Positions 9,292 to 32,194 of a stretch of DNA of 33,732 nucleotides are shown here, piece after piece (the first letter of the stretch is position 1; each line of letters begins with the position of its first letter). The notes under the pieces are model-generated. The model did not search any database and was not told the origin of the DNA. It saw only the letters and a program-made list of their open reading frames with translations. The stretch is from a virus: IMG/VR virus record IMGVR_UViG_3300035698_013211, positions 1 through 33,732 of that record; one strand, given 5' to 3'. A program made the translations under genes and the position numbers.

Positions 9292-9888
9292 TTATTTCCT
9301 CACTTCCTTACATATCGCTAGCATCTGGACGCCCAGGAACTCCACCACCTTAACCCGCTGGGCGTATGCGTTCATAAATTGACTAAATATATAGCGGCTA
9401 AACCACCGGATATGAGTTTCTGCCATATTGAATCCCACAGGAACGCTAGCCAGTATTTTCCCCTCTGGCTTGCATATCCTCACAGCCTCAGCCATGACCC
9501 GCTTAGGATCGTAAACATGCTCTAGAATTTCCCCTAAAATAACGGTGTCATAGCTATTGTCAGCCACCGGAATAGTCTCAGCCTCTCCTAAAATAAACGT
9601 TAGCCGCTCCTGGGTGTCTTCTGGGAGCGTTTCCTTGATCTTGTTAGCTTCTTCCAAATGTTCTCTCAGCATATCCACACCTACCACCGTCAGTCCCTTG
9701 ACGGCACACAGAATAGCGATCACGCCGCCACTACAGCCAATGTCTATCACAGAACCGCTAGCCTCAGCCACGATCCGATCCACCCGATCCTTGTTGGCTT
9801 TCATTCCTATAGTGGTGGTGTTGCCTCCGTAAACCTCATTGATCTTGTCCGGGTGTTGCCTTTCCTGATCTCTGATCTCGTTTAGCAT
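9292..9888 (-). CDS. Class I SAM-dependent methyltransferase (UbiE/UbiG-like)
   Basis: A 198-residue Rossmann methyltransferase. SAM-binding motif I is VIDIGCSGG (about residues 47-55), an acidic residue ends the second strand (VVGVDM), motif III is the ILGEAETIP region, and DTVILGEILEHVYDP marks the fourth strand with the usual xEHV signature of methyltransferase 11-type enzymes. I chose ATG at 9888, with AGGTG 6 nt upstream, over GTG at 9897. It overlaps the end of the glycosyltransferase gene by 53 nt, so the two are probably translated together. The likely substrate is a small molecule or sugar, for example O-methylation of a glycan; the substrate cannot be read from sequence. Confidence 0.85.
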   Translation of the reverse strand: MLNEIRDQERQHPDKINEVYGGNTTTIGMKANKDRVDRIVAEASGSVIDIGCSGGVIAILCAVKGLTVVGVDMLREHLEEANKIKETLPEDTQERLTFILGEAETIPVADNSYDTVILGEILEHVYDPKRVMAEAVRICKPEGKILASVPVGFNMAETHIRWFSRYIFSQFMNAYAQRVKVVEFLGVQMLAICKEVRK

Positions 9889-12070
9889 TATAATCACCTA
9901 TCACTGAGCGATAAAACCCCACCAGTTTAGCTATGTGATCCTCCATAACCACCCTGTGATCCTCGGTGATTTTCACAGCCTTTAGTGTGTCTAGCTGATC
10001 CTTTATGTCTTGCGCTGTCTCAAAAATTATTCCACACTGGTATTGATCTATCAGTGAGTGTAGCGTTTTCAAATCTTTTGAGATCACCGGCAAACCCGCC
10101 GCCATATATTCAAATAACTTGTTGGGAACAGCCAGATCAACCGCTGGGCGTTGCCTTTCGTGTAAGATATTGAAACAGATGATCCCAGCGTCAAACTGGG
10201 TTAGCTGTGTCAATAGCTCATCAGGTCTGGTTTTTTCGTGATAGTGGATATATTTGTTGTGCCTGTCCAGTTGCTGGTATTCTGCACACTCAAAAACTGG
10301 ATAGATGTGGATATGGAGTTTTAACGCCGCTATCTGCTGGAATAGCTCCCTGTAGTCTCTGTGGGAGCCGTTGGCGCTGATCCCGCCCTGGTAGACTATA
10401 TGGAACCCGCCGTGAGTCTCTGATAGCTTAGGGAGCCGTTTATCTGGGAGATCGTCCTGTGATGTGAAATTCATCAGCACCAGACTAGCCGCCGTGTCGA
10501 TCCGGTATTGCTGGAGCGCATAAATTAACTGCCCTGCCGTGGCGTATACCCTACCATCGCTATAGGCGTTTGCCTTGTGTTCCATGTATAGCGCATAAGG
10601 CATTAAAATAGCGTTTCCGCTGTTCTTGTGTGTCATAAGGTCGTGGGTGTCATGTACAAGAGGAACCGCTCTAGCCGGATTCTCTAGCGCCTGAACTGTC
10701 TGAATGTCTGGCTCGTTGTGAATGTGGAGTAAATCATAATCATTCATGATCTCCCAGAGATTATATGGCGAGGGAACCTTGACGGTGGCGCTGTATACCT
10801 CATCATCTGGGATTCCGTAAACTTGCTCTAGTGTTGCCACGCTATAGGCTAACGTCACCCTGTGTCCTTTATGCCTGAGCGCCGCCGCCTGTTTCCTGTT
10901 TCGGATGCATGGAGACGGCTGATAGAATAGAATATTGAGCGGTTCTCCACCCTCGCCCAGCTTTTGCCATGTCGTCTCCAGGTTCCGGTGTGCTAGCGAA
11001 AAATCAGGATTTTCTCTGAGCGCCTGTTTGTAGTAGCCCTCAGCCGCCGCCTTGTCGCCACGTCTGGACATTAGAGCGCCCAGGTTATTATACGCCACCG
11101 CCTCGGAACCGTAGGAATCCATTATCAAACTTGTCGGCTTAGGGTTCTTTCGCTGTTCCTCTACTAACTCAAAATAGCGATCATAGTAGGGTTTAGCGTT
11201 TTCTAGATCGTTCTGTTCCGTGAGTGCCATAGCTAGATATATGGTGGCGTCCATATTGGTTCCCACCCGCTCCAGCAAGTCTGAACAGATTTCCTGTGTT
11301 TTCTGGTAGTTTTTCGCCTGTAAATAGGCATAAGCTAGATCGTTTCCGCTCTGCTGATAGGCGTGTTCCGTGGATTCCATCTCTCCACTCCGAACTCTGG
11401 AGAAAAAGTTTTCCGCTAGCCGGATCAGATCATCCCATTTATCTTGAACCCTGAAAATCCTGAATAGGTTACACCATGCGAATGAGTTGTGATCATCAGC
11501 TTCTATCTGTTTCCAGATCAGGGTTTCGGTTCTATGGTATTTTTTCGCCATAGTTTCCGGATCAAGGTTATAGCCTAAGTGGTGAATTTGGAGCGCCACA
11601 CTGACCGGCTTAGTCTCACTAACCACCTGGTTATGCACGATCCCCTCATAGTGGGCTTTGTTACGTTTCAGGAACCGCTCAGAGTGGATCAAGGTCTGTC
11701 CATCTGGCTTATAATTGACCACCTGAACACCAACGGTGTCAGAGTCCACACCGCCCAGGAACTCCTTGAGCGCCTGAACGTCGATCCGCTGATCCATCCG
11801 CTCATCTGCGTCTATAATCAGCGCCCAGTCACACTCTATCTGTTCCAGAGCGTAGTTTCTGGCTGCGGAAAAATCATCACACCACTTAAAATAGAACACT
11901 CTAGCGCCGCTCTGTTCCGCTATATCCACAGTTTTGTCAGTGGAGCCGGTGTCTACTATAACGATCTCATCCACTACGTTTATAACGCTGTCTATACAGC
12001 CCTGGAGTAGCTTTTCCTCATCCTTAACAATCATACATGCTGAAATAGTCGCTTGCTGTTTTTTTTCCAT
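9836..12070 (-). CDS. Three-part glycosyltransferase: GT2 - TPR - GT-B
   Basis: A 744-residue protein with two glycosyltransferase modules. Residues about 8-230 are a GT2 (GT-A fold) domain, with ACMIVKDEE, VDTGSTDKT (40-43 DTGS) and the metal-binding DAD at 87-89, like SunS/WaaE-type transferases. Residues about 235-365 are TPR repeats (AVAYNNLGALMSRRGDKAAA, AHRNLETTWQKLGE). Residues about 375-735 are a GT-B domain of the GT4 type, with the donor-binding PNKLFEYMAAGLPVIS from about 649. ATG at 12070 has AAGGGAG upstream. TPR-containing glycosyltransferases often modify proteins. Located between neck genes in the structural operon, it may glycosylate a virion protein or alter a host glycan; both are inference. 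Confidence 0.88.
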   Translation of the reverse strand: MEKKQQATISACMIVKDEEKLLQGCIDSVINVVDEIVIVDTGSTDKTVDIAEQSGARVFYFKWCDDFSAARNYALEQIECDWALIIDADERMDQRIDVQALKEFLGGVDSDTVGVQVVNYKPDGQTLIHSERFLKRNKAHYEGIVHNQVVSETKPVSVALQIHHLGYNLDPETMAKKYHRTETLIWKQIEADDHNSFAWCNLFRIFRVQDKWDDLIRLAENFFSRVRSGEMESTEHAYQQSGNDLAYAYLQAKNYQKTQEICSDLLERVGTNMDATIYLAMALTEQNDLENAKPYYDRYFELVEEQRKNPKPTSLIMDSYGSEAVAYNNLGALMSRRGDKAAAEGYYKQALRENPDFSLAHRNLETTWQKLGEGGEPLNILFYQPSPCIRNRKQAAALRHKGHRVTLAYSVATLEQVYGIPDDEVYSATVKVPSPYNLWEIMNDYDLLHIHNEPDIQTVQALENPARAVPLVHDTHDLMTHKNSGNAILMPYALYMEHKANAYSDGRVYATAGQLIYALQQYRIDTAASLVLMNFTSQDDLPDKRLPKLSETHGGFHIVYQGGISANGSHRDYRELFQQIAALKLHIHIYPVFECAEYQQLDRHNKYIHYHEKTRPDELLTQLTQFDAGIICFNILHERQRPAVDLAVPNKLFEYMAAGLPVISKDLKTLHSLIDQYQCGIIFETAQDIKDQLDTLKAVKITEDHRVVMEDHIAKLVGFYRSVIGDYNAKRDQRSGKATPGQDQ

Positions 12071-14349: not shown

Positions 14350-15471
14350 TCAGTTCAAGCCGTATCTATAGGCGTGTGCTTCTTCATTCATGAGTTCAAG
14401 CGTGTAGTCGCCGCCGATCCACCGTTTATGGGTGTCGCCATCCTCAGCCAAATCCTTCTCAAAGAACGGACGCAGATAGCCCAAGGCTACCTTTGTCGTG
14501 TCCAGCATGAAATATTCACCAGCCGCCATAAGCCTATGAGGTAGGACGATTATGAGACCAGGAGCCAACGGGTTCACTATAGCGTTTATGTTAGCCCCGC
14601 CGATCCTCACCTTCTCATCTATTCTGATCCTGTCTGTGTAAAGGTTACAGATTCCCTGAGCCATCGAACCATCACAGACGATCAGGTTAGGAACTCCACC
14701 AGCCGCCCAGATTGTCTGTATATCAGCCTCTATCGCGGTTGTGTCCACATCTCCGCTATCTTCCTCTCTGTTGGTGGAGACCATAGCCCACAAGCCACCC
14801 ATAGTTCGGAAAGTGCTGGAGCCGTTTCCAGCCTGAGCCGCCACGCCCATGAGTAGTGTTTTCTCCAGTTCTTTGCCCAGTTGTCTATAAGTCTGGAGAA
14901 CCTGGTGATTTAGCTCAAAACTCACGCCGCCCAGATGTTCCACGGCTCCCTGAACCCCCGCCACCTCGACTGTTCGGCTGAACGTCTGGAGATAATTACT
15001 CTCCTTAGAACGCCCTCTGGCTCTGGCTACCTTTCCATCATCGCCCTCGTCTTCCAAAACACTCACTATGTGGACGACTGACAAAGTATCATGCGGAGCG
15101 CCCGTGGTGGAGCCATAGCCTCTGGTTACTGTCAGGGCGTCTGTGGACGTAGCTGTAACCAGCATGTATTCTTGATCTACCCTGATCACCACATTATAAG
15201 TGGCTACGTCAGACGGCAATTTGTCAGCGCCATCTCCAGCATATACGTCAATGCTGGTTGCTGTGGTAGTTATAGCACCATCAAGCGCTGAGGTGGTTCC
15301 CTGTAGTTCGTCCTCTATCCATTTTGGCTGTGTAGACTTGACCTGGATTTTCGGCAACAGCATCTGGAGCGGTGTGTCGTAAGGGCTTATCATGTGAACT
15401 CCCTCAGCCACAAACTCCCTGTTTCCGTCGCTCTGGTCGTAAGTCTGCATCAAATCAGTTATAACAGCCAT
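14350..15471 (-). CDS. Major capsid protein (DUF5309/SU10-like, HK97 fold)
   Basis: A 373-residue protein. The N-terminal region has the family pattern of SU10-type major head proteins: AEGVHMISPYDTPLQMLLPKI and later PKWIEDELQG, where the family has a P-x-x-TP-x-x and a W-x-x-D-x-L. An inserted domain (about residues 60-135) carries a beta motif ending ALTVTRGYGSTTGAPH, then VVHIV, which looks like an insertion in the E-loop region. A helical spine (VLQTYRQLGKELEKTLLMG) and a P-domain follow, with the C-terminus TLELMNEEAHAYRYGL. GGAGGACT lies upstream of ATG 15471. Scaffold upstream and abundant expression signals support the call. Confidence 0.82.
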   Translation of the reverse strand: MAVITDLMQTYDQSDGNREFVAEGVHMISPYDTPLQMLLPKIQVKSTQPKWIEDELQGTTSALDGAITTTATSIDVYAGDGADKLPSDVATYNVVIRVDQEYMLVTATSTDALTVTRGYGSTTGAPHDTLSVVHIVSVLEDEGDDGKVARARGRSKESNYLQTFSRTVEVAGVQGAVEHLGGVSFELNHQVLQTYRQLGKELEKTLLMGVAAQAGNGSSTFRTMGGLWAMVSTNREEDSGDVDTTAIEADIQTIWAAGGVPNLIVCDGSMAQGICNLYTDRIRIDEKVRIGGANINAIVNPLAPGLIIVLPHRLMAAGEYFMLDTTKVALGYLRPFFEKDLAEDGDTHKRWIGGDYTLELMNEEAHAYRYGLN

Positions 15472-19527: not shown

Positions 19528-19597
19528 AGTGAGTGGCTGGACTTGAACCAGCAAGGCTAGCCAGTGGCTAGCGCTCTACCTTTTGAGCTACACCCAC
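19528..19597 (-). tRNA. Degenerate tRNA-like element
   Basis: On the minus strand an acceptor stem (GTGGGTG with CACTCAC, one G-T pair), TA, a D stem (GCTC/GAGC) and a perfect T arm (GCTGG TTCAAGT CCAGC) are present. The anticodon arm is odd: position 26 is missing, the arm GCTAG-CCACTGG-CTAGC has C instead of U at position 33, and it can fold further into a 7-bp hairpin with a 3-nt loop. The nominal anticodon would be ACU. The variable loop has only 3 nt and the CCA is shifted one base (T-ACCA). It is probably a decayed or repurposed tRNA. Confidence 0.55.
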
Positions 19598-19609
19598 GCT
19601 ATTATTAAC

Positions 19610-19685
19610 TGGAGCCGGTGTCAGGAATCGAACCCGAAATAAGGAGATTACAAATCGCCCGCTCTGCCTATTGAGCTACACCGGC
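19610..19685 (-). tRNA. tRNA-Thr (UGU)
   Basis: A complete cloverleaf on the minus strand. The acceptor stem GCCGGTG/CACCGGC is perfect, the D stem is GCTC/GAGC, the anticodon loop is TTTGTAA (anticodon UGU, reads ACA) on a stem with one C-U mismatch, and the T arm is TCGGG TTCGATT CCTGA. The discriminator base is U and CCA is encoded. It may supplement threonine ACA decoding during late expression. Confidence 0.9.
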
Positions 19686-19911
19686 TCATTTAGTTCTTGT
19701 TTAACTATGAAATGTGAAACAACCCCACCTGTTCCGGTTCTTTTCGTCCATACACTAACCCCCTCACAAAACCGATCATAGGTAGCGATTCGATACACTA
19801 CAGGTAGCGATTCGATACACTACAGGTAGCGATTCGATACACTACAGGTAGCGATTCGATACAATATTGCCATTTTACAGGTAGCGATTCGATACACCTT
19901 ATATTAGACTA
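19686..19911. other. Noncoding stretch holding phased repeats
   Basis: About 226 bases without a convincing gene. The main content is the five-copy repeat array (19781-19897). On the minus strand a 16-codon frame from ATG at about 19749 follows a GAGGGGG site, but it is too short to call as a gene. No clear sigma70 promoter was seen. Confidence 0.6.
19781..19897. repeat. Five helically phased 18-bp direct repeats
   Basis: Copies of ggtagcgattcgatacac start at 19781, 19803, 19825, 19847 (last base changed) and 19880. The start-to-start distances are 22, 22, 22 and 33 bp, all multiples of 11, so every copy faces the same side of the helix. The first four are separated by TACA only, which excludes a CRISPR array. 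The array lies between the terminase-side genes and the tRNA/portal genes. Possible roles are packaging-site (pac) recognition, late-promoter activation or a second origin; an encoded DNA-binding protein, such as the winged-helix protein at 20095, is the first candidate to bind it. Confidence 0.9.
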
Positions 19912-20094: not shown

Positions 20095-20427
20095 TCAGTA
20101 TAAGTGTTCTGGGTTTAGCCGGTATTCACTGGGATTCCTCAGTAGTCCACCCTGTTCCACCGTTTCCACTACTCCAGTTTTCTCCAACGACTTGATCGCC
20201 CTCACCACCGTGGAGTGAGCTAAACCCGTTATGTCCTCAATCTGTTTCTGCGTGATCTTCACTTTGTGATCTGGGTTAAGCGTTCCATCTCTGACATATT
20301 TTGTGAGCATTGCCATATATACAAAACAACTTGAAGAATTAAACAGGGTTCCGTTTACGGTTCTGTGAGGTAGTAAAGAAAAACCGCCTTTAACCTTTGT
20401 TCCCTTGCCTCGTCTGTTCCTGCTCAC
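20095..20427 (-). CDS. Winged-helix DNA-binding protein
   Basis: A 110-residue protein; GTG at 20427 with GAGG 6-7 nt upstream is preferred to the in-frame start at 20445. A basic N-terminus (VSRNRRGKGTKVKGG) precedes a winged helix at about residues 35-105: FVYMAMLTKYV, then ITQKQIEDITGLAHSTVVRAIKSLEKTGVVETV, where the second helix-turn-helix helix is AHSTVVRAIKSL and the wing follows. It resembles MarR/replication-protein-type HTH domains. It lies directly after the large terminase gene and about 200 bp from the phased repeats, so it is the leading candidate to bind them. This link is inference. Confidence 0.75.
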   Translation of the reverse strand: MSRNRRGKGTKVKGGFSLLPHRTVNGTLFNSSSCFVYMAMLTKYVRDGTLNPDHKVKITQKQIEDITGLAHSTVVRAIKSLEKTGVVETVEQGGLLRNPSEYRLNPEHLY

Positions 20428-20474
20428 ACGCCACCTCAATGACACCTTTCATGCTACCAGGTATCATGCTTTCA

Positions 20475-21710
20475 TTAGTTGTATTTTCCCGTCGTCTGTA
20501 CCACGCAACCACGCCGCCACTGTACTATGAAATAACGAAGCGCATCCATACTGTGATCGTGTTCCTTAACGGGTTCCTCTTTATCGCTTTTTTCGTCATA
20601 GCTGTAGAGGTTAAATTCCTTGATCGTCTCTGTGCAGTTACCCAGAACGTATAGCCCGGGCTTTTGATCTTCCCGAATCCTTAGCTGTTGTCGCACAGCC
20701 TCTAAGCCTTTTAGAACGTTAGTTTGAACAGCCAGTGTGGGTATTCCGTTTTCCAGCAGTGTCGCTCTAGCGGATGCCCCCGAAGGATCGCAAGTGGTGT
20801 ATTCGTAGGAACCGCCCATGGCGTTAAGGTTTTCGGCGTGTCGCTCCACTGTTTTGTGGCGCTCGTAGTATTCCCGATAGATATACACCCGATCATCTGG
20901 ATCAACAGCCATGTATAAACATGCAAAGGGATTCTCATATCCAAAGTCAATAGACCGGAACCGCTCCCACCCAGGATCAATCTGGAATGTGCTGGGTAGA
21001 ACGTGGATCGTCTCATCAAAGTCGCTGTAGACCTGTCCAGCCGCTAGCGTGAAGTCAGCGCCATATTCCTGCTGGAACGCCGCCTGGCTCATGGTACGCT
21101 TTGCTTCTGCTATGTCCTCTGGTGACAGCTTAGGGTTTTTCCATGACGGAGACTTAAAGCGCTCCCATTCAGGATATTCTGGATCGTTCCCTCGTTTCCA
21201 AAGATCATAAACCCAGTTATAGCCCTTGGGAGTGCTAATAAACAGCGCCCACCCTAGACGATCTGATAATGTTGGTCTGAGGTATAGCTCCCAGATCGAC
21301 TGTTTACAGCTTGCACACTCATCAAATATAAGCCAGTCCAGCCCCTCACCCAACAGTGATTCTGGGTGTTCCGCTGATTTAGCCTCTATGGTAGAACCCC
21401 ACGGAAACTCTAGTTTGAGCGGTTGCATCTGCTTTCTGGTGGGTGTAAGCCCCGCTTTCTTTATCATATCAAAGTATATTTCCCGTGCCACTTTCGTAGC
21501 TAGATCATAAGTCTTTGATACAACCCACCCCCGCGTGTTTGGGAGTAGCAGTGGAACCTCAGCTTCTTTACTGGCTGATAGCGATTTCCCCCACCGCCGC
21601 CCAGCCACCACCACCCTAAAGCGTGCTGTGGAGTCGTGGATCGGCTGTTGCCCTGTGTGTGGTTCGTAGCCTAGCCGCCGGAACCATGCCTTTTTTGAGA
21701 TTCTATACAT
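20475..21710 (-). CDS. terL: Terminase large subunit
   Basis: A 411-residue packaging motor and nuclease. Walker A is GRRWGKS at residues 37-43. Walker B is LIFDECA, with D130 and E131. The coupling motif is FISTPKGYN (S159, T160). The RNase H-like nuclease acidic residues are D255 (SIDFGY), D308 (CDPSG) and D385/D389 (EHDHSMDALRY). The start overlaps the SGNH-like gene by 40 nt and its ribosome site is weak (AAGTGA), so translation may depend on the upstream gene. It works with the portal and the putative small subunit at 22535. Confidence 0.95.
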   Translation of the reverse strand: MYRISKKAWFRRLGYEPHTGQQPIHDSTARFRVVVAGRRWGKSLSASKEAEVPLLLPNTRGWVVSKTYDLATKVAREIYFDMIKKAGLTPTRKQMQPLKLEFPWGSTIEAKSAEHPESLLGEGLDWLIFDECASCKQSIWELYLRPTLSDRLGWALFISTPKGYNWVYDLWKRGNDPEYPEWERFKSPSWKNPKLSPEDIAEAKRTMSQAAFQQEYGADFTLAAGQVYSDFDETIHVLPSTFQIDPGWERFRSIDFGYENPFACLYMAVDPDDRVYIYREYYERHKTVERHAENLNAMGGSYEYTTCDPSGASARATLLENGIPTLAVQTNVLKGLEAVRQQLRIREDQKPGLYVLGNCTETIKEFNLYSYDEKSDKEEPVKEHDHSMDALRYFIVQWRRGCVVQTTGKYN

Positions 21711-22312
21711 TCACTTAGCCCGATCTGTTTTCCGTCTGGAATCTTAACCCTTACCTCGCCGGTTATATCACGCCATATCTTTTCTGCTATCAGTTCGTTT
21801 CCTCTGGGCATCATGTGGCGCCCGTCGTTTTGTAAGCAATACTCAGGAATCCCCAAAACGATAGTGGAGTAAACATCTATCACCGTGATCCGGAACCGTT
21901 CCATTATCCCACGTGCTACTTTATTATATTCCTTAACGGCTGTGTTCATACCAGCCCGATCCTCGTCTATCCGGATCGGCGTGCTAGCTATCCAAAATAG
22001 CGGCGCTCTGGTTCCCGTTCTAAGCCTGTTGGCTATTTTCCCCAGGTTTAACTCATAGTCCGCTAAGGAAACACGATCCTTAATGTCGTAGTGTCCACAG
22101 TTCCACGCTATATAGTTCGCTGGACGTTCTACCAGCCACTTTTCCACATTAACCAGAATCCTGTGGCTGGAGCCGCCATTCATAGAAAGCCGCCCAGTTT
22201 GGAACTTAAATGGTGGAACGCCCTGGAGTTCTATACTTTTCGGAACCACATCTCTGAGATATGGCAGATACCCCAGGGCTATATCATCGCCAATTATGCT
22301 AAAACGCTCCAT
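21671..22312 (-). CDS. SGNH/GDSL-hydrolase-like protein with altered nucleophile
   Basis: A 213-residue protein with the SGNH fold pattern. The block I position reads IGDDIALGY, where the usual catalytic Ser of GDS is Asp10. A glycine-rich GGSSHRILVNVEKWL follows, then NCGHYDI, a GxxD in place of GxND. Block V is complete: NDGRHMMPRGNELIAE (D163, H166). With Ser replaced, classic esterase activity is doubtful; it may bind a carbohydrate or use another mechanism. ATG at 22312 has GAGGGAGG upstream. It is inserted between the small membrane protein and the large terminase gene, an unusual place, and overlaps both neighbours. Confidence 0.7.
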   Translation of the reverse strand: MERFSIIGDDIALGYLPYLRDVVPKSIELQGVPPFKFQTGRLSMNGGSSHRILVNVEKWLVERPANYIAWNCGHYDIKDRVSLADYELNLGKIANRLRTGTRAPLFWIASTPIRIDEDRAGMNTAVKEYNKVARGIMERFRITVIDVYSTIVLGIPEYCLQNDGRHMMPRGNELIAEKIWRDITGEVRVKIPDGKQIGLSECIESQKRHGSGG

Positions 22313-22542
22313 ACCTCCCTCATTATCATGTAGATTCCAGCGGCTACTCCGATCCCCCAGAGCCAGCCTTTTACGTCTATATAAGAATGATCCACGATCC
22401 GCCAGTCCTCTAAGATTTCATAAGCCAAAAACCCACTAACCAACGCCCACCCTAGCCACGGGCTACTTACTAGCAGGATCGCCGTATATACGCCCAGTGG
22501 GAAGTGGATCAGCCAACGGTATACTCTTTTCCAGTTAATCAT
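22294..22542 (-). CDS. Small membrane protein, holin-like
   Basis: An 82-residue protein with two hydrophobic segments (about residues 15-42, GVYTAILLVSSPWLGWALVS; and 60-80, GWLWGIGVAAGIYMIM) joined by a polar loop EILEDWRIVDHSYIDVKG. GGAG is 8 nt before the ATG, and it overlaps the preceding stop by 8 nt. Size and topology suit a class II holin or another small phage membrane protein, but no lysis enzyme lies next to it, so the holin call is tentative. Confidence 0.5.
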   Translation of the reverse strand: MINWKRVYRWLIHFPLGVYTAILLVSSPWLGWALVSGFLAYEILEDWRIVDHSYIDVKGWLWGIGVAAGIYMIMREVWSVLA

Positions 22543-22996
22543 CTATCTGCTCCAAACAGTCAGTCCAGATTTTCTCTATTGGTGATAGCGCCGGATCGCT
22601 CACACCGTGTACGATTTCACCCACACCGTCAATATATTTCATGATTTCCAGGGCATCTCTGGCTGTGAACTTAACCACTCCATCCCTTAGCTGTTCCTTG
22701 AACACCTCTAGGGAGTCTTTAGCCAGAGCGTAGTTTTGCCGCCTGATCTCGGTCAACGCCTCAATCTCAAATTCCTTTAGCTTTTCTTTCGCTCCAGCGT
22801 CCACCTCGGCTAAGTATTCCCGCCGCTCTGTTGTCCATTTCTCCTGAGCCGCCGTTTTCTTAACATGCCCTGTGGTGATTCCGTAGTGAGCCGCTATTTC
22901 CGCTAGCGTCACCTCTCCAGGCTTTCCGGTGGCTTTACTCCGTTTTCCATTCAGAGCGCCGGTAACATACCACCGTTTAGCCTCAGCCTTATTCAT
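22535..22996 (-). CDS. terS: Putative terminase small subunit
   Basis: A 153-residue protein from ATG 22996 (AGAGGGAACG upstream), preferred to GTG at 23017. The N-terminal half holds a helix-turn-helix: KRWYVTGALNGKRS, then VTLAEIAAHYGITTGHVKKTAAQEKWTTER, which fits the YfeC/phBC6A51-type DNA-binding domain of small terminases (W-x-x-R region). Residues about 75-125 are a charged oligomerisation helix region (KEKLKEFEIEALTEIRRQNY). Its position three genes upstream of the large terminase fits. It would recognise the packaging site. Confidence 0.72.
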   Translation of the reverse strand: MNKAEAKRWYVTGALNGKRSKATGKPGEVTLAEIAAHYGITTGHVKKTAAQEKWTTERREYLAEVDAGAKEKLKEFEIEALTEIRRQNYALAKDSLEVFKEQLRDGVVKFTARDALEIMKYIDGVGEIVHGVSDPALSPIEKIWTDCLEQIDD

Positions 22997-23009
22997 TTTA
23001 ACGTTCCCT

Positions 23010-23285
23010 CTAGCCACCTGTTTCCACTTCCCTCAGTTCCGCCCTGAGCCTTGCCACCCGTTCCTGTTTGTACGCCTCGGTTATCATGACAACCCCTTGT
23101 GTTAGCCCTAGAGCCTGCATCCTAAGCCGTGAAACTATTTTTTGAGTTGCCGATAGTGTATTTATAGCTTCCTCAATGGCTTTATTGACTGCAAAATACT
23201 CATCACCGTCTACAGGTTTAGCCGGGGTCCATTCTAGCTCTGCTATGTTTGGTTCCTGTTCTGGTTTAACCTTATCCTCTGGCAT
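23010..23285 (-). CDS. Small helical protein, first late gene
   Basis: A 91-residue protein with AAGGGGGAAAC before ATG 23285. It has an acidic N-terminus, then two helices (EYFAVNKAIEEAINTLSAT and a C-terminal basic/acidic helix EAYKQERVARLRAELREVET). It is the first gene after the strong terminator at 23311. Family unknown. Confidence 0.6.
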   Translation of the reverse strand: MPEDKVKPEQEPNIAELEWTPAKPVDGDEYFAVNKAIEEAINTLSATQKIVSRLRMQALGLTQGVVMITEAYKQERVARLRAELREVETGG

Positions 23286-23310: not shown

Positions 23311-23363
23311 ATAAAAAGAGGGGAACAGAGCCGGTTTTTTATCCCCGGTTCCGTTCCCCTCTT
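23311..23363 (-). terminator. Strong terminator between regulators and late genes
   Basis: On the minus strand a long stem (AGAGGGGAACGG... with ...CCGGCTCTGTTCCCCTCT, about 17 pairs with one mismatch, 10-nt loop) ends in five T residues. It separates the sigma-like genes from the late genes and lies only 26 nt before the first late start codon. A late promoter would have to be upstream of it, or late transcription reads through by antitermination. Confidence 0.85.
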
Positions 23364-23437: not shown

Positions 23438-23683
23438 TTAGAGTTTGTCTGGCTGATATTCTGTGTGCGTGTCACGCTCGATCCGTCTACCATAAGCCCT
23501 TGAGTTTAGATATTGAGCCGCTTTGTTCCTTGCTAGTTGCAAATACCACGATCTTGTGTGTCCTAGTTCCGCTTTCAGGATCGCCACACACATTTCTTGT
23601 TTTGCTTCTTCTCTTTCGTGGAAATCATCACTTACTCCATAAGCTACCCTCTCAATGTCGGTCAAAAAGTTTTCAACGTCCAT
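23438..23683 (-). CDS. Sigma70 region 2-like protein
   Basis: An 81-residue protein starting at ATG 23683 (GAGGGGAAAA upstream), not the in-frame start at 23707. It is almost entirely a region-2-like helical unit: DFHEREEAKQEMCVAILKAE matches the conserved D/E-x-x-Q-E-x-x-x-x-I pattern of sigma region 2.2, which contacts the RNA polymerase clamp. SWYLQLARNKAAQYLNSRAYGRRI matches the region 2.3/2.4 helix (W-x-x-x-x-A-R-N-x-x-x-x-x-x-R), which melts and reads the -10 element. No region 4 is present; that lies on the preceding gene. The pair resembles the SigO-RsoA two-subunit sigma of Bacillus in division of domains. Confidence 0.62.
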   Translation of the reverse strand: MDVENFLTDIERVAYGVSDDFHEREEAKQEMCVAILKAELGHTRSWYLQLARNKAAQYLNSRAYGRRIERDTHTEYQPDKL

Positions 23684-23721
23684 TTTTCCCCTCATGTATA
23701 CGATCAAATAACTGGGCGTTT

Positions 23722-24129
23722 TTAGCCCCCCCCTGTTAGATATTTTTCCAGTTTTTCTATGGCTGTTTCAATACGATCACAAACTCGCCGTTGACCTATC
23801 CCGAAATATCCCCCTATTTCCCACTGAGTATAACCAGCCACATATAGCAGGAAACAGCGACGCTGTTTGTCTGTGTGCGTTTTAACCCCCTCCTGGACAT
23901 CCATCATGGCGTCTAAGTTTGGGTATGGGTTCGTCATTCTAACCCCGCCACTGGGCATCTGGGAGCGTGATCCAGCGTCTCTGGCGTCACAGCACACCTC
24001 AACCACAGGCTCCCAGGGAGTCTCACGAATGATTAGATCGTCCGTGAGAATTTCCATATTATCTCTGGCTATGTTGGCTGGTGTTTGTTCCGCTCCAGCC
24101 GTGAGCATAATCGTCTCAGTCTGTTCCAT
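23722..24129 (-). CDS. Sigma70 region 4-like protein
   Basis: A 135-residue protein starting at ATG 24129 with AGGAGGGCGC upstream; the longer frame to 24198 lies inside the previous gene. The first 70 residues are polar with no recognised domain. Residues about 72-131 are a region-4-like HTH: VQEGVKTHTDKQRRCFLLYV (sigma region 4.1, L/H-T-x-x-Q-R-x-x-F), AGYTQWEIGGYFGIGQRRVCDRI (region 4.2 HTH that reads a -35 element), then AIEKLEKYL. It overlaps the preceding regulator gene by 14 nt and is followed by the region-2-like gene. It probably provides promoter recognition for late transcription. Confidence 0.72.
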   Translation of the reverse strand: MEQTETIMLTAGAEQTPANIARDNMEILTDDLIIRETPWEPVVEVCCDARDAGSRSQMPSGGVRMTNPYPNLDAMMDVQEGVKTHTDKQRRCFLLYVAGYTQWEIGGYFGIGQRRVCDRIETAIEKLEKYLTGGG

Positions 24130-24964
24130 GCGCCCTCCTGTAGTCTGCCCTTTGTTTTTCAAACAGCTTTTGTTCTGTCTTAGCCCTCGTAGACACAAAC
24201 CCCAGCGGTTTTTGTTTTTCCATTAGCTCCACTGGGTTTAGCTTTCTTTTATAATACTGCGGGTTCGGTATGTAGCCCTTGCCCTCTTTCTGGATCACGC
24301 CAGCCGCCACAGCCTCAGCGATCCAGCGGTAAGCCGCGTTTATAACTACCCCGTTTTCTAATGCTACCTGGTTAAGCAATTCTTTCCTTTCCGCTCTCCC
24401 GTATGGCTGGTAGAACATAATCACAGCGCTCAGAACGTAGCCTAGCCGCTGTTCCTTTGTGTGAGAGCCAGCACGTCTGTTTGCTATGCCCAGTGTCCGT
24501 ATAGCCCTTTGCACACAGAACTCACTAACCCCTAATCGTTTGGCTATGTCCTTACAGGGAGTTTTAAGCATATATAACGATTTAACCCTCTGCTGTAGCC
24601 GCTTCTGATCCTCCCCTATTATACGCCTCTGCGGAACCCCCGCCGCTTTTGCCATTGCACGCGCAATTGAAGCGTTTACATGAAATCGTCGCGCGATCTC
24701 TTTTACAGCCACCCCCTCTTTATAGGCGTTTACTATCTTATTTTCTCTGCTTTCCTCTGGTGGTGGTGGAGTAGGAACCGGCGGTGGTTCCGGTTCGGGT
24801 GCTGGTTCCGGTAGTGGATCAAACATTATGGTTCCCACACCAACTCCCCTAACGTTTTCCACTCTATGTTCACTGACGGATTTCATGCTAGAACCTGGAG
24901 CGCTGTTAATCTCTGTGGTGGCGTTTCCCCTTGTAAATAGCCCCTTTAGCCATTCCCTGATCAT
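24116..24964 (-). CDS. DNA-binding regulator with two HTH motifs and Pro-rich linker
   Basis: A 282-residue protein from ATG 24964 (GGGAG 8 nt upstream). After a polar N-terminus, a Pro/Glu stretch (PLPEPAPEPEPPPVPTPPPP, about residues 50-70) leads to two consecutive HTHs: IVNAYKEGVAVKEIARRFHV (about 77-96) and SLYMLKTPCKDIAKRLGVSE (about 128-147). A winged-helix-like C-terminal half follows (GYVLSAVIMFYQPYGRAERK, then AYRWIAEAVAAGVIQKEGKGY). The first HTHs resemble resolvase/HTH_23-type motifs. It heads the cluster with the two sigma-like genes, and an inverted repeat lies just upstream at 24985. A role as late-gene activator or repressor is inferred. Confidence 0.7.
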   Translation of the reverse strand: MIREWLKGLFTRGNATTEINSAPGSSMKSVSEHRVENVRGVGVGTIMFDPLPEPAPEPEPPPVPTPPPPEESRENKIVNAYKEGVAVKEIARRFHVNASIARAMAKAAGVPQRRIIGEDQKRLQQRVKSLYMLKTPCKDIAKRLGVSEFCVQRAIRTLGIANRRAGSHTKEQRLGYVLSAVIMFYQPYGRAERKELLNQVALENGVVINAAYRWIAEAVAAGVIQKEGKGYIPNPQYYKRKLNPVELMEKQKPLGFVSTRAKTEQKLFEKQRADYRRAHGTD

Positions 24965-32158: not shown

Positions 32159-32169
32159 GTTATTAAGTA
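32148..32169. promoter_or_regulatory. Operator-like site overlapping the leftward promoter
   Basis: TACTTGAT-tacgtt-ATTAAGTA: half-sites match at 7 of 8 positions with a 6-bp spacer, the same geometry as the site at 31762. It covers most of the -10 element and the start region of the leftward promoter, so a bound repressor would block it. Confidence 0.6.
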
Positions 32170-32194
32170 TACCATGAGTCATAACCTTTGTCAA
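32166..32194 (-). promoter_or_regulatory. Leftward early promoter (PL-like)
   Basis: On the minus strand TTGACA (32194-32189), 17 bp, TATACT (32171-32166): a near-consensus sigma70 promoter firing toward the early genes. Confidence 0.88.

Follow-up and report, generated by a model that had tools for sequence, protein, structure and literature searches.

The division of a sigma70-type factor between separate proteins is already known from SigO-RsoA of Bacillus subtilis and, among phages, from T4 gp55-gp33 and SPO1 gp33-gp34. In B. subtilis, sigma region 4 is carried by SigO and region 2 by RsoA (PMC8103513), the target promoter requires both proteins (PMC8103513, PMC10028694), and the small subunit of the pair has a mass of 9.0 kDa (PMC10141391). 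T4 gp55 together with gp33 has been termed a split sigma, in which a region-2-only protein and its flap-binding partner serve late transcription (PMC2988020). These divided sigma factors have come to light as individual cases, each investigated separately. A survey of Streptococcus phages describes ArpU-like late regulators whose genes sit immediately ahead of the small terminase gene (PMC5601072).

The locus analysed here, the adjacent genes P0001 and P0002, belongs to the uncultured phage IMGVR_UViG_3300035698_013211; the whole stretch of 33,732 bases, classed as linear and without end repeats, is hereafter called the window. On balance, we lean towards reading this locus as the source of a divided sigma70-type factor, by which host RNA polymerase is switched to the phage late genes. 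SigO-RsoA had been named as a precedent in the original prediction, which overlooked the two phage precedents as well as a run of eight G residues (G8) at the end of P0001.

Layout of the locus

All genes discussed lie on the minus strand and are read from right to left: the tandem-HTH gene, P0001, P0002, and a terminator, with the genes for packaging and structure beyond it. P0001 and P0002 are the last genes of the early operon, and a strong terminator separates them from the packaging genes.

32166..32194, minus strand: candidate early promoter for the host sigma, preceding the early operon, TTGACA-17-TATACT with an extended -10 (consensus scan only, 11/12 positions)
24116..24964, minus strand: tandem-HTH DNA-binding protein of 282 aa, Pro-rich in an N-terminal stretch (HTH_23, E=7e-7, and HTH_28, in two stretches; PHROG DNA-binding proteins)
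23722..24129, minus strand: P0001, sigma region-4-like protein of 135 aa (Sigma70_r4, TIGR02937; SD aggagg)
23726..23733, minus strand: G8 run directly before the P0001 stop codon (run scan)
23438..23683, minus strand: P0002, stand-alone sigma region-2-like protein of 81 aa (Sigma70_r2, predicted fold; SD gagggg)
23316..23363, minus strand: strong intrinsic terminator separating the sigma pair from the late operon (hairpin and fold energy)
23010..23285, minus strand: gene that opens the packaging/late operon, 91 aa, function unassigned (SD aaggggg; no Pfam family)
22535..23017, minus strand: probable small terminase subunit with an N-terminal HTH (from its position and a weak HTH match)
20475..21710, minus strand: large terminase subunit, TerL (Terminase_6N, E=8e-12; Terminase_6C, E=4e-7)

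The coordinates, lengths, and peptides of both genes agreed exactly with those first proposed, and the surroundings claimed for the pair were confirmed. The upstream two-HTH gene is co-directional with P0001 and overlaps it by 14 nt; the terminator consists of 19-nt arms (89% complementary) around a 10-nt loop with a T-rich tract thereafter, its region folding at -56.6 kcal/mol for 161 nt (z=-4.0); and the packaging/structural operon follows, with TerL and an SU10-type capsid gene at 14350-15471. Both P0001 and P0002 look like real genes, judging from their sequence features: the annotated frames score highest by the codon use of the phage itself, and the Shine-Dalgarno energies (-10.8 kcal/mol for P0001, equalled at only 1.4% of all ATGs, and -8.5 kcal/mol for P0002, with only 3.9% of all ATGs as good) are similar to those of its other genes.

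Several further features of the window were recorded. In NCBIfam, the tandem-HTH protein comes closest to Cbp1, an archaeal CRISPR-repeat-binding protein (E=6e-6, well short of the cut-off), which probably reflects just a common tandem-HTH layout. A weakly matching GDSL-lipase-like protein at 21671-22312 overlaps the large terminase gene. A set of five direct repeats, each about 22 bp long (TAGTGTATCGAATCGCTACCTG on the minus strand; spacing 22, 22, 22, 33), at 19779-19894 adjoins a winged-HTH gene (20095-20445, MarR/RepL-like) and looks like iterons or an operator array, and a gap within the late operon holds two phage tRNA genes at 19528-19685, tRNA-Ser (anticodon ACT) and tRNA-Thr (TGT). 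Within the structural operon, 9836-12070 encodes a 744-aa protein that combines a family-2 glycosyltransferase with TPR repeats and a part resembling group-1 glycosyltransferases, after which comes a methyltransferase-like ORF (9292-9897).

Region 4 and region 2 signatures

The region-4-like HTH that had been claimed for the 23722-24129 product was recovered by several profile collections, at about residues 85-131 of P0001. Pfam Sigma70_r4 matched with E=6.4e-5 (22.8 bits, cut-off 24.1), the C-terminal part of the sigma70-ECF model TIGR02937 (positions 110-165 of 165) with E=1.5e-5, and the PHROG sigma families with about 1e-5; in a region-4 scan of the whole window, P0001 gave the best of three matches (E=8.8e-7, 24.3 bits), over the family cut-off. 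Domain searches placed no region 2 in this 15.1-kDa protein, and its acidic N-terminal 80 residues matched nothing. Its closest PDB sequence was a UPF0122 HTH protein at a non-significant E=0.57, and its structure model was poor (pLDDT 41) and left unused.

P0002 (9.6 kDa) had been described as a region-2-like unit only. Pfam Sigma70_r2 matched it with E=0.0019 and 18.4 bits (cut-off 24) over positions 3-68 of 71, and the region-2 scan of the whole window returned P0002 as its only match (E=1.5e-4), next to the best region-4 match. Ten scrambled or reversed versions of P0002 gave a best Pfam E-value of 0.0054, none of them to a sigma family; since the true match is only about threefold better, the profile score alone is modest and not decisive. 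It does fall between the Sigma70_r2 scores of two known phage sigmas, the proven T4 gp55 (13.1 bits) and SPO1 gp34 (23.8 bits).

The assignment of P0002 to region 2 is instead carried, at moderate strength, by its predicted fold and by the phage relatives described below. Structure prediction, proposed at the outset as a check, pointed the same way: the AlphaFold2 model comprises three helices (pLDDT 81, pTM 0.65), the first seven PDB fold matches are all sigma region 2 (probability 0.75-0.97, TM 0.53-0.60, E 0.2-1.2), and the first three matches in a viral structure library are annotated phage sigma factors. The 81-residue protein thus resembles sigma factors both in its Sigma70_r2 match and in its region-2 fold matches, contrary to the refuting outcome named in the original prediction. 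By our own reading, P0002 has the characteristic QE and RN positions of region 2; its acidic first half and basic second half are as expected of a unit that would bind both core polymerase and DNA. Also by our reading, helices 2 and 3 are linked by a shorter stretch than in an ordinary region 2, so that -10 specificity could be reduced. Designed TIM barrels matched in the A2 profile search were regarded as noise.

The late-regulator slot in related phages

No close relative of this phage was present in the collections searched, and direct relatives of P0001 and P0002 were absent from phages and viral contigs, those of P0002 also from plasmids. Searches with the small terminase and capsid proteins returned no relatives, nor did the tandem-HTH protein have any in viral contigs, and the portal gave a single distant one lacking region 2; relatives were therefore gathered through the large terminase. 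One of them, L042 (IMGVR_UViG_3300004481_000117), with about 28% terminase identity to the window phage, carries two sigma-like genes:

L042:2573-2881: region-2-only protein of 102 aa (Sigma70_r2, 48.8 bits, E=6e-13)
L042:2878-3132: region-4-only protein of 84 aa (Sigma70_r4, 41.3 bits, E=1e-10)

The two genes overlap by ATGA and match positions 7-72 (region 2) and 115-164 (region 4) of the 165-position TIGR02937. Judged by these profiles, L042:2573-3132 reads as an unambiguous split sigma pair, the strongest example found here. A simple frameshift artefact is unlikely, for by our reading a TAA some six codons ahead of the ATG closes the region-4 frame, which also has an SD-like GGGAG. The L042 pair precedes a ParB-like gene and the terminase genes and so has the same slot as the window pair; the order is region 2 then region 4 in L042 and the opposite in the window. 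No pairwise similarity was detected between P0001 or P0002 and the L042 proteins, so the two pairs are likened by their split and slot, not by homology as such.

Other terminase relatives fill this slot in different ways. In L008/L009, a 110-aa region-2-only protein (L008:1827-2159; 27.6 bits, above cut-off) is encoded directly before the small terminase gene, and a search of these partial contigs for region 4 detected none. The L003 group has a 103-aa region-4-like protein in that position. Among 21 further terminase relatives (L042 included), 11 had an ArpU-like match and L042 was the only one with region 2; an ArpU-type match without region 2 was seen in 10 of the 21, which indicates that a region-2 partner is not needed for the late-regulator role and weighs against the divided-sigma reading. 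Taken with the Streptococcus survey (PMC5601072), these contents point to a late-regulator slot filled by a region-4-like protein, a region-2-like protein, or both. P0001 and P0002, just upstream of the terminase genes, occupy the position of the ArpU-type activators of Gram-positive phages. Of the remaining candidates, the phage records L078 and L079 matched region 2 in full-length single sigmas of 251-257 aa and were rejected as split cases, as were L077 and L080, which carry only region-4-like ORFs.

Late transcription, rival readings, and known divided sigma factors

Of the two-subunit sigma proposed as a late switch, the division of regions 2 and 4 over two genes is supported by sequence profiles, the predicted fold of P0002, and comparative evidence such as the L042 pair in the same slot; the late role is supported only by the position of the pair. 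We infer that P0001 and P0002 bind each other and core RNA polymerase, recognise promoters, and act late. Both subunits would be products of the distal part of the early operon, after the tandem-HTH protein; P0002 would dock on the beta' clamp and open or read the -10 element, P0001 would sit on the beta flap and read an upstream element, and the two together would initiate transcription of the packaging/structural operon on the far side of the terminator. Only about 30 nt separate the end of the terminator hairpin from the first late gene, such that the late promoter would either overlap the hairpin or lie upstream and be read through. A consensus scan found no promoter directly before the late operon, few matches being expected in so short a stretch; a host-type promoter at the early but not the late operon may weakly favour a divided sigma for the late genes. 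The motif search proposed upstream of the late genes yielded no common motif, and a resemblance to the 22-bp repeats at 19779-19894 was not significant (20/200 shuffles); that no late promoter motif was found in the window is ascribed to the presence of a single main late operon and the lack of a close relative.

The chief competing explanation, which we regard as possible though tentative, holds that P0001 is an ordinary region-4-like activator of the ArpU/RinA/Ltr type working with the host holoenzyme, and that P0002 modulates core polymerase separately by binding to it, for example as a gp55-like region 2 acting alone or as a region-2 mimic that displaces the host factor. Many terminase relatives do fill the slot with ArpU or region-4-like regulators in phages lacking a region-2 gene, late regulators of Gram-positive phages do precede the small terminase gene (PMC5601072), and L008/L009 has its region-2-only gene with region 4 undetected in partial contigs. 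P0001, however, matched neither the ArpU nor the RinA model (TIGR01637, TIGR01636), L021 by contrast matching ArpU with E=2.5e-24, and the side-by-side occurrence of region-2 and region-4 genes in two phages, the window and L042, counts against this rival. Far less probable is that P0002 is an unrelated small three-helix protein with a coincidental region-2 match, beside a P0001 that is a plain HTH regulator. The modest E-value of P0002 and the scrambled control, which reached 0.0054 with another family, would allow this, yet the match spans nearly the full Sigma70_r2 model, is the only one of its kind in the window and adjoins the best region-4 match, and is joined by the fold search results and the parallels in L042 and L008.

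A further reading, which we consider unlikely, takes G8 as the place where P0001 and P0002 are joined into a single sigma with swapped domains, region 4 preceding region 2, either through a one-base assembly error or through slippage (a ribosomal -1 shift at G_GGG_GGC, polymerase slippage, or phase variation). G8 is the only G or C run of at least seven on either strand of the 33.7 kb and falls at the P0001 stop; one added G yields a single open frame P0001-linker-P0002, and the 43-nt stretch at the P0001 end where a shift would fuse the frames is of a type of overlap that makes up only 2.4% of the contig. Set against this, P0002 has an ATG and a good Shine-Dalgarno sequence of its own, no structured stimulator was found near G8 (fold z=+0.8), and the observation was made post hoc, with no close relative in which conservation could be seen. 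It is correspondingly improbable that G8 is a working slippage or phase-variation site giving both separate subunits and a fused region 4-then-2 sigma, their ratio setting late-gene output. The possibility that a single frameshift had interrupted an ordinary sigma gene was rejected, given the domain order of 4 then 2 and the different frames.

Two distantly related phages with region-2 and region-4 genes in opposite orders, in a slot that holds region-4-like activators in other phages, suggest that some late activators act as half of a divided sigma, and whether region-4-like late regulators recruit a region-2 partner, from phage or host, becomes a testable question.

Compared with the known systems, P0001 shares with the ArpU, RinA, and Ltr regulators of Gram-positive phages the slot before the small terminase gene and a region-4-like HTH, whereas it lies outside the ArpU and RinA models and the ArpU phages examined here lack a region-2 gene. 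Tn916 orf7/orf8, tried as a precedent, are described as regulatory genes, and no evidence for region 2 was found in them. SPO1 gp33 and gp34 likewise come from a pair of neighbouring genes that overlap, and both take part in late transcription; gp34, however, itself has region 2 and a weak region 4, and gp33 forms its own family (Phage_Gene33) that is not sigma-like, neither P0001 nor P0002 matching this family in the Pfam search and hhalign of A1 with gp34 giving nothing meaningful. T4 gp55 is a phage region-2-only protein as P0002 appears to be (Sigma70_r2, 13.1 against 18.4 bits), but hhalign of A1 found no meaningful match between gp55 and the region-2 protein; gp33 is a coactivator (Trans_coact, PF16805) lacking region-4 sequence, a family matched by neither P0001 nor P0002 in the Pfam search, the T4 genes are unlinked, and activation involves the sliding clamp. 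SigO-RsoA differs in being a chromosomal acid-stress system and in the size of SigO (22.5 kDa against 15.1 kDa for P0001). Its domain layout is nonetheless that of the present locus, with regions 4 and 2 on separate proteins of one operon and region-2 subunits of near-equal size (9.0 and 9.6 kDa), and pairs of the P0001/P0002 type could likewise be used in AND gates as small, naturally occurring sigma factors in two parts, a use to which SigO-RsoA has already been put.
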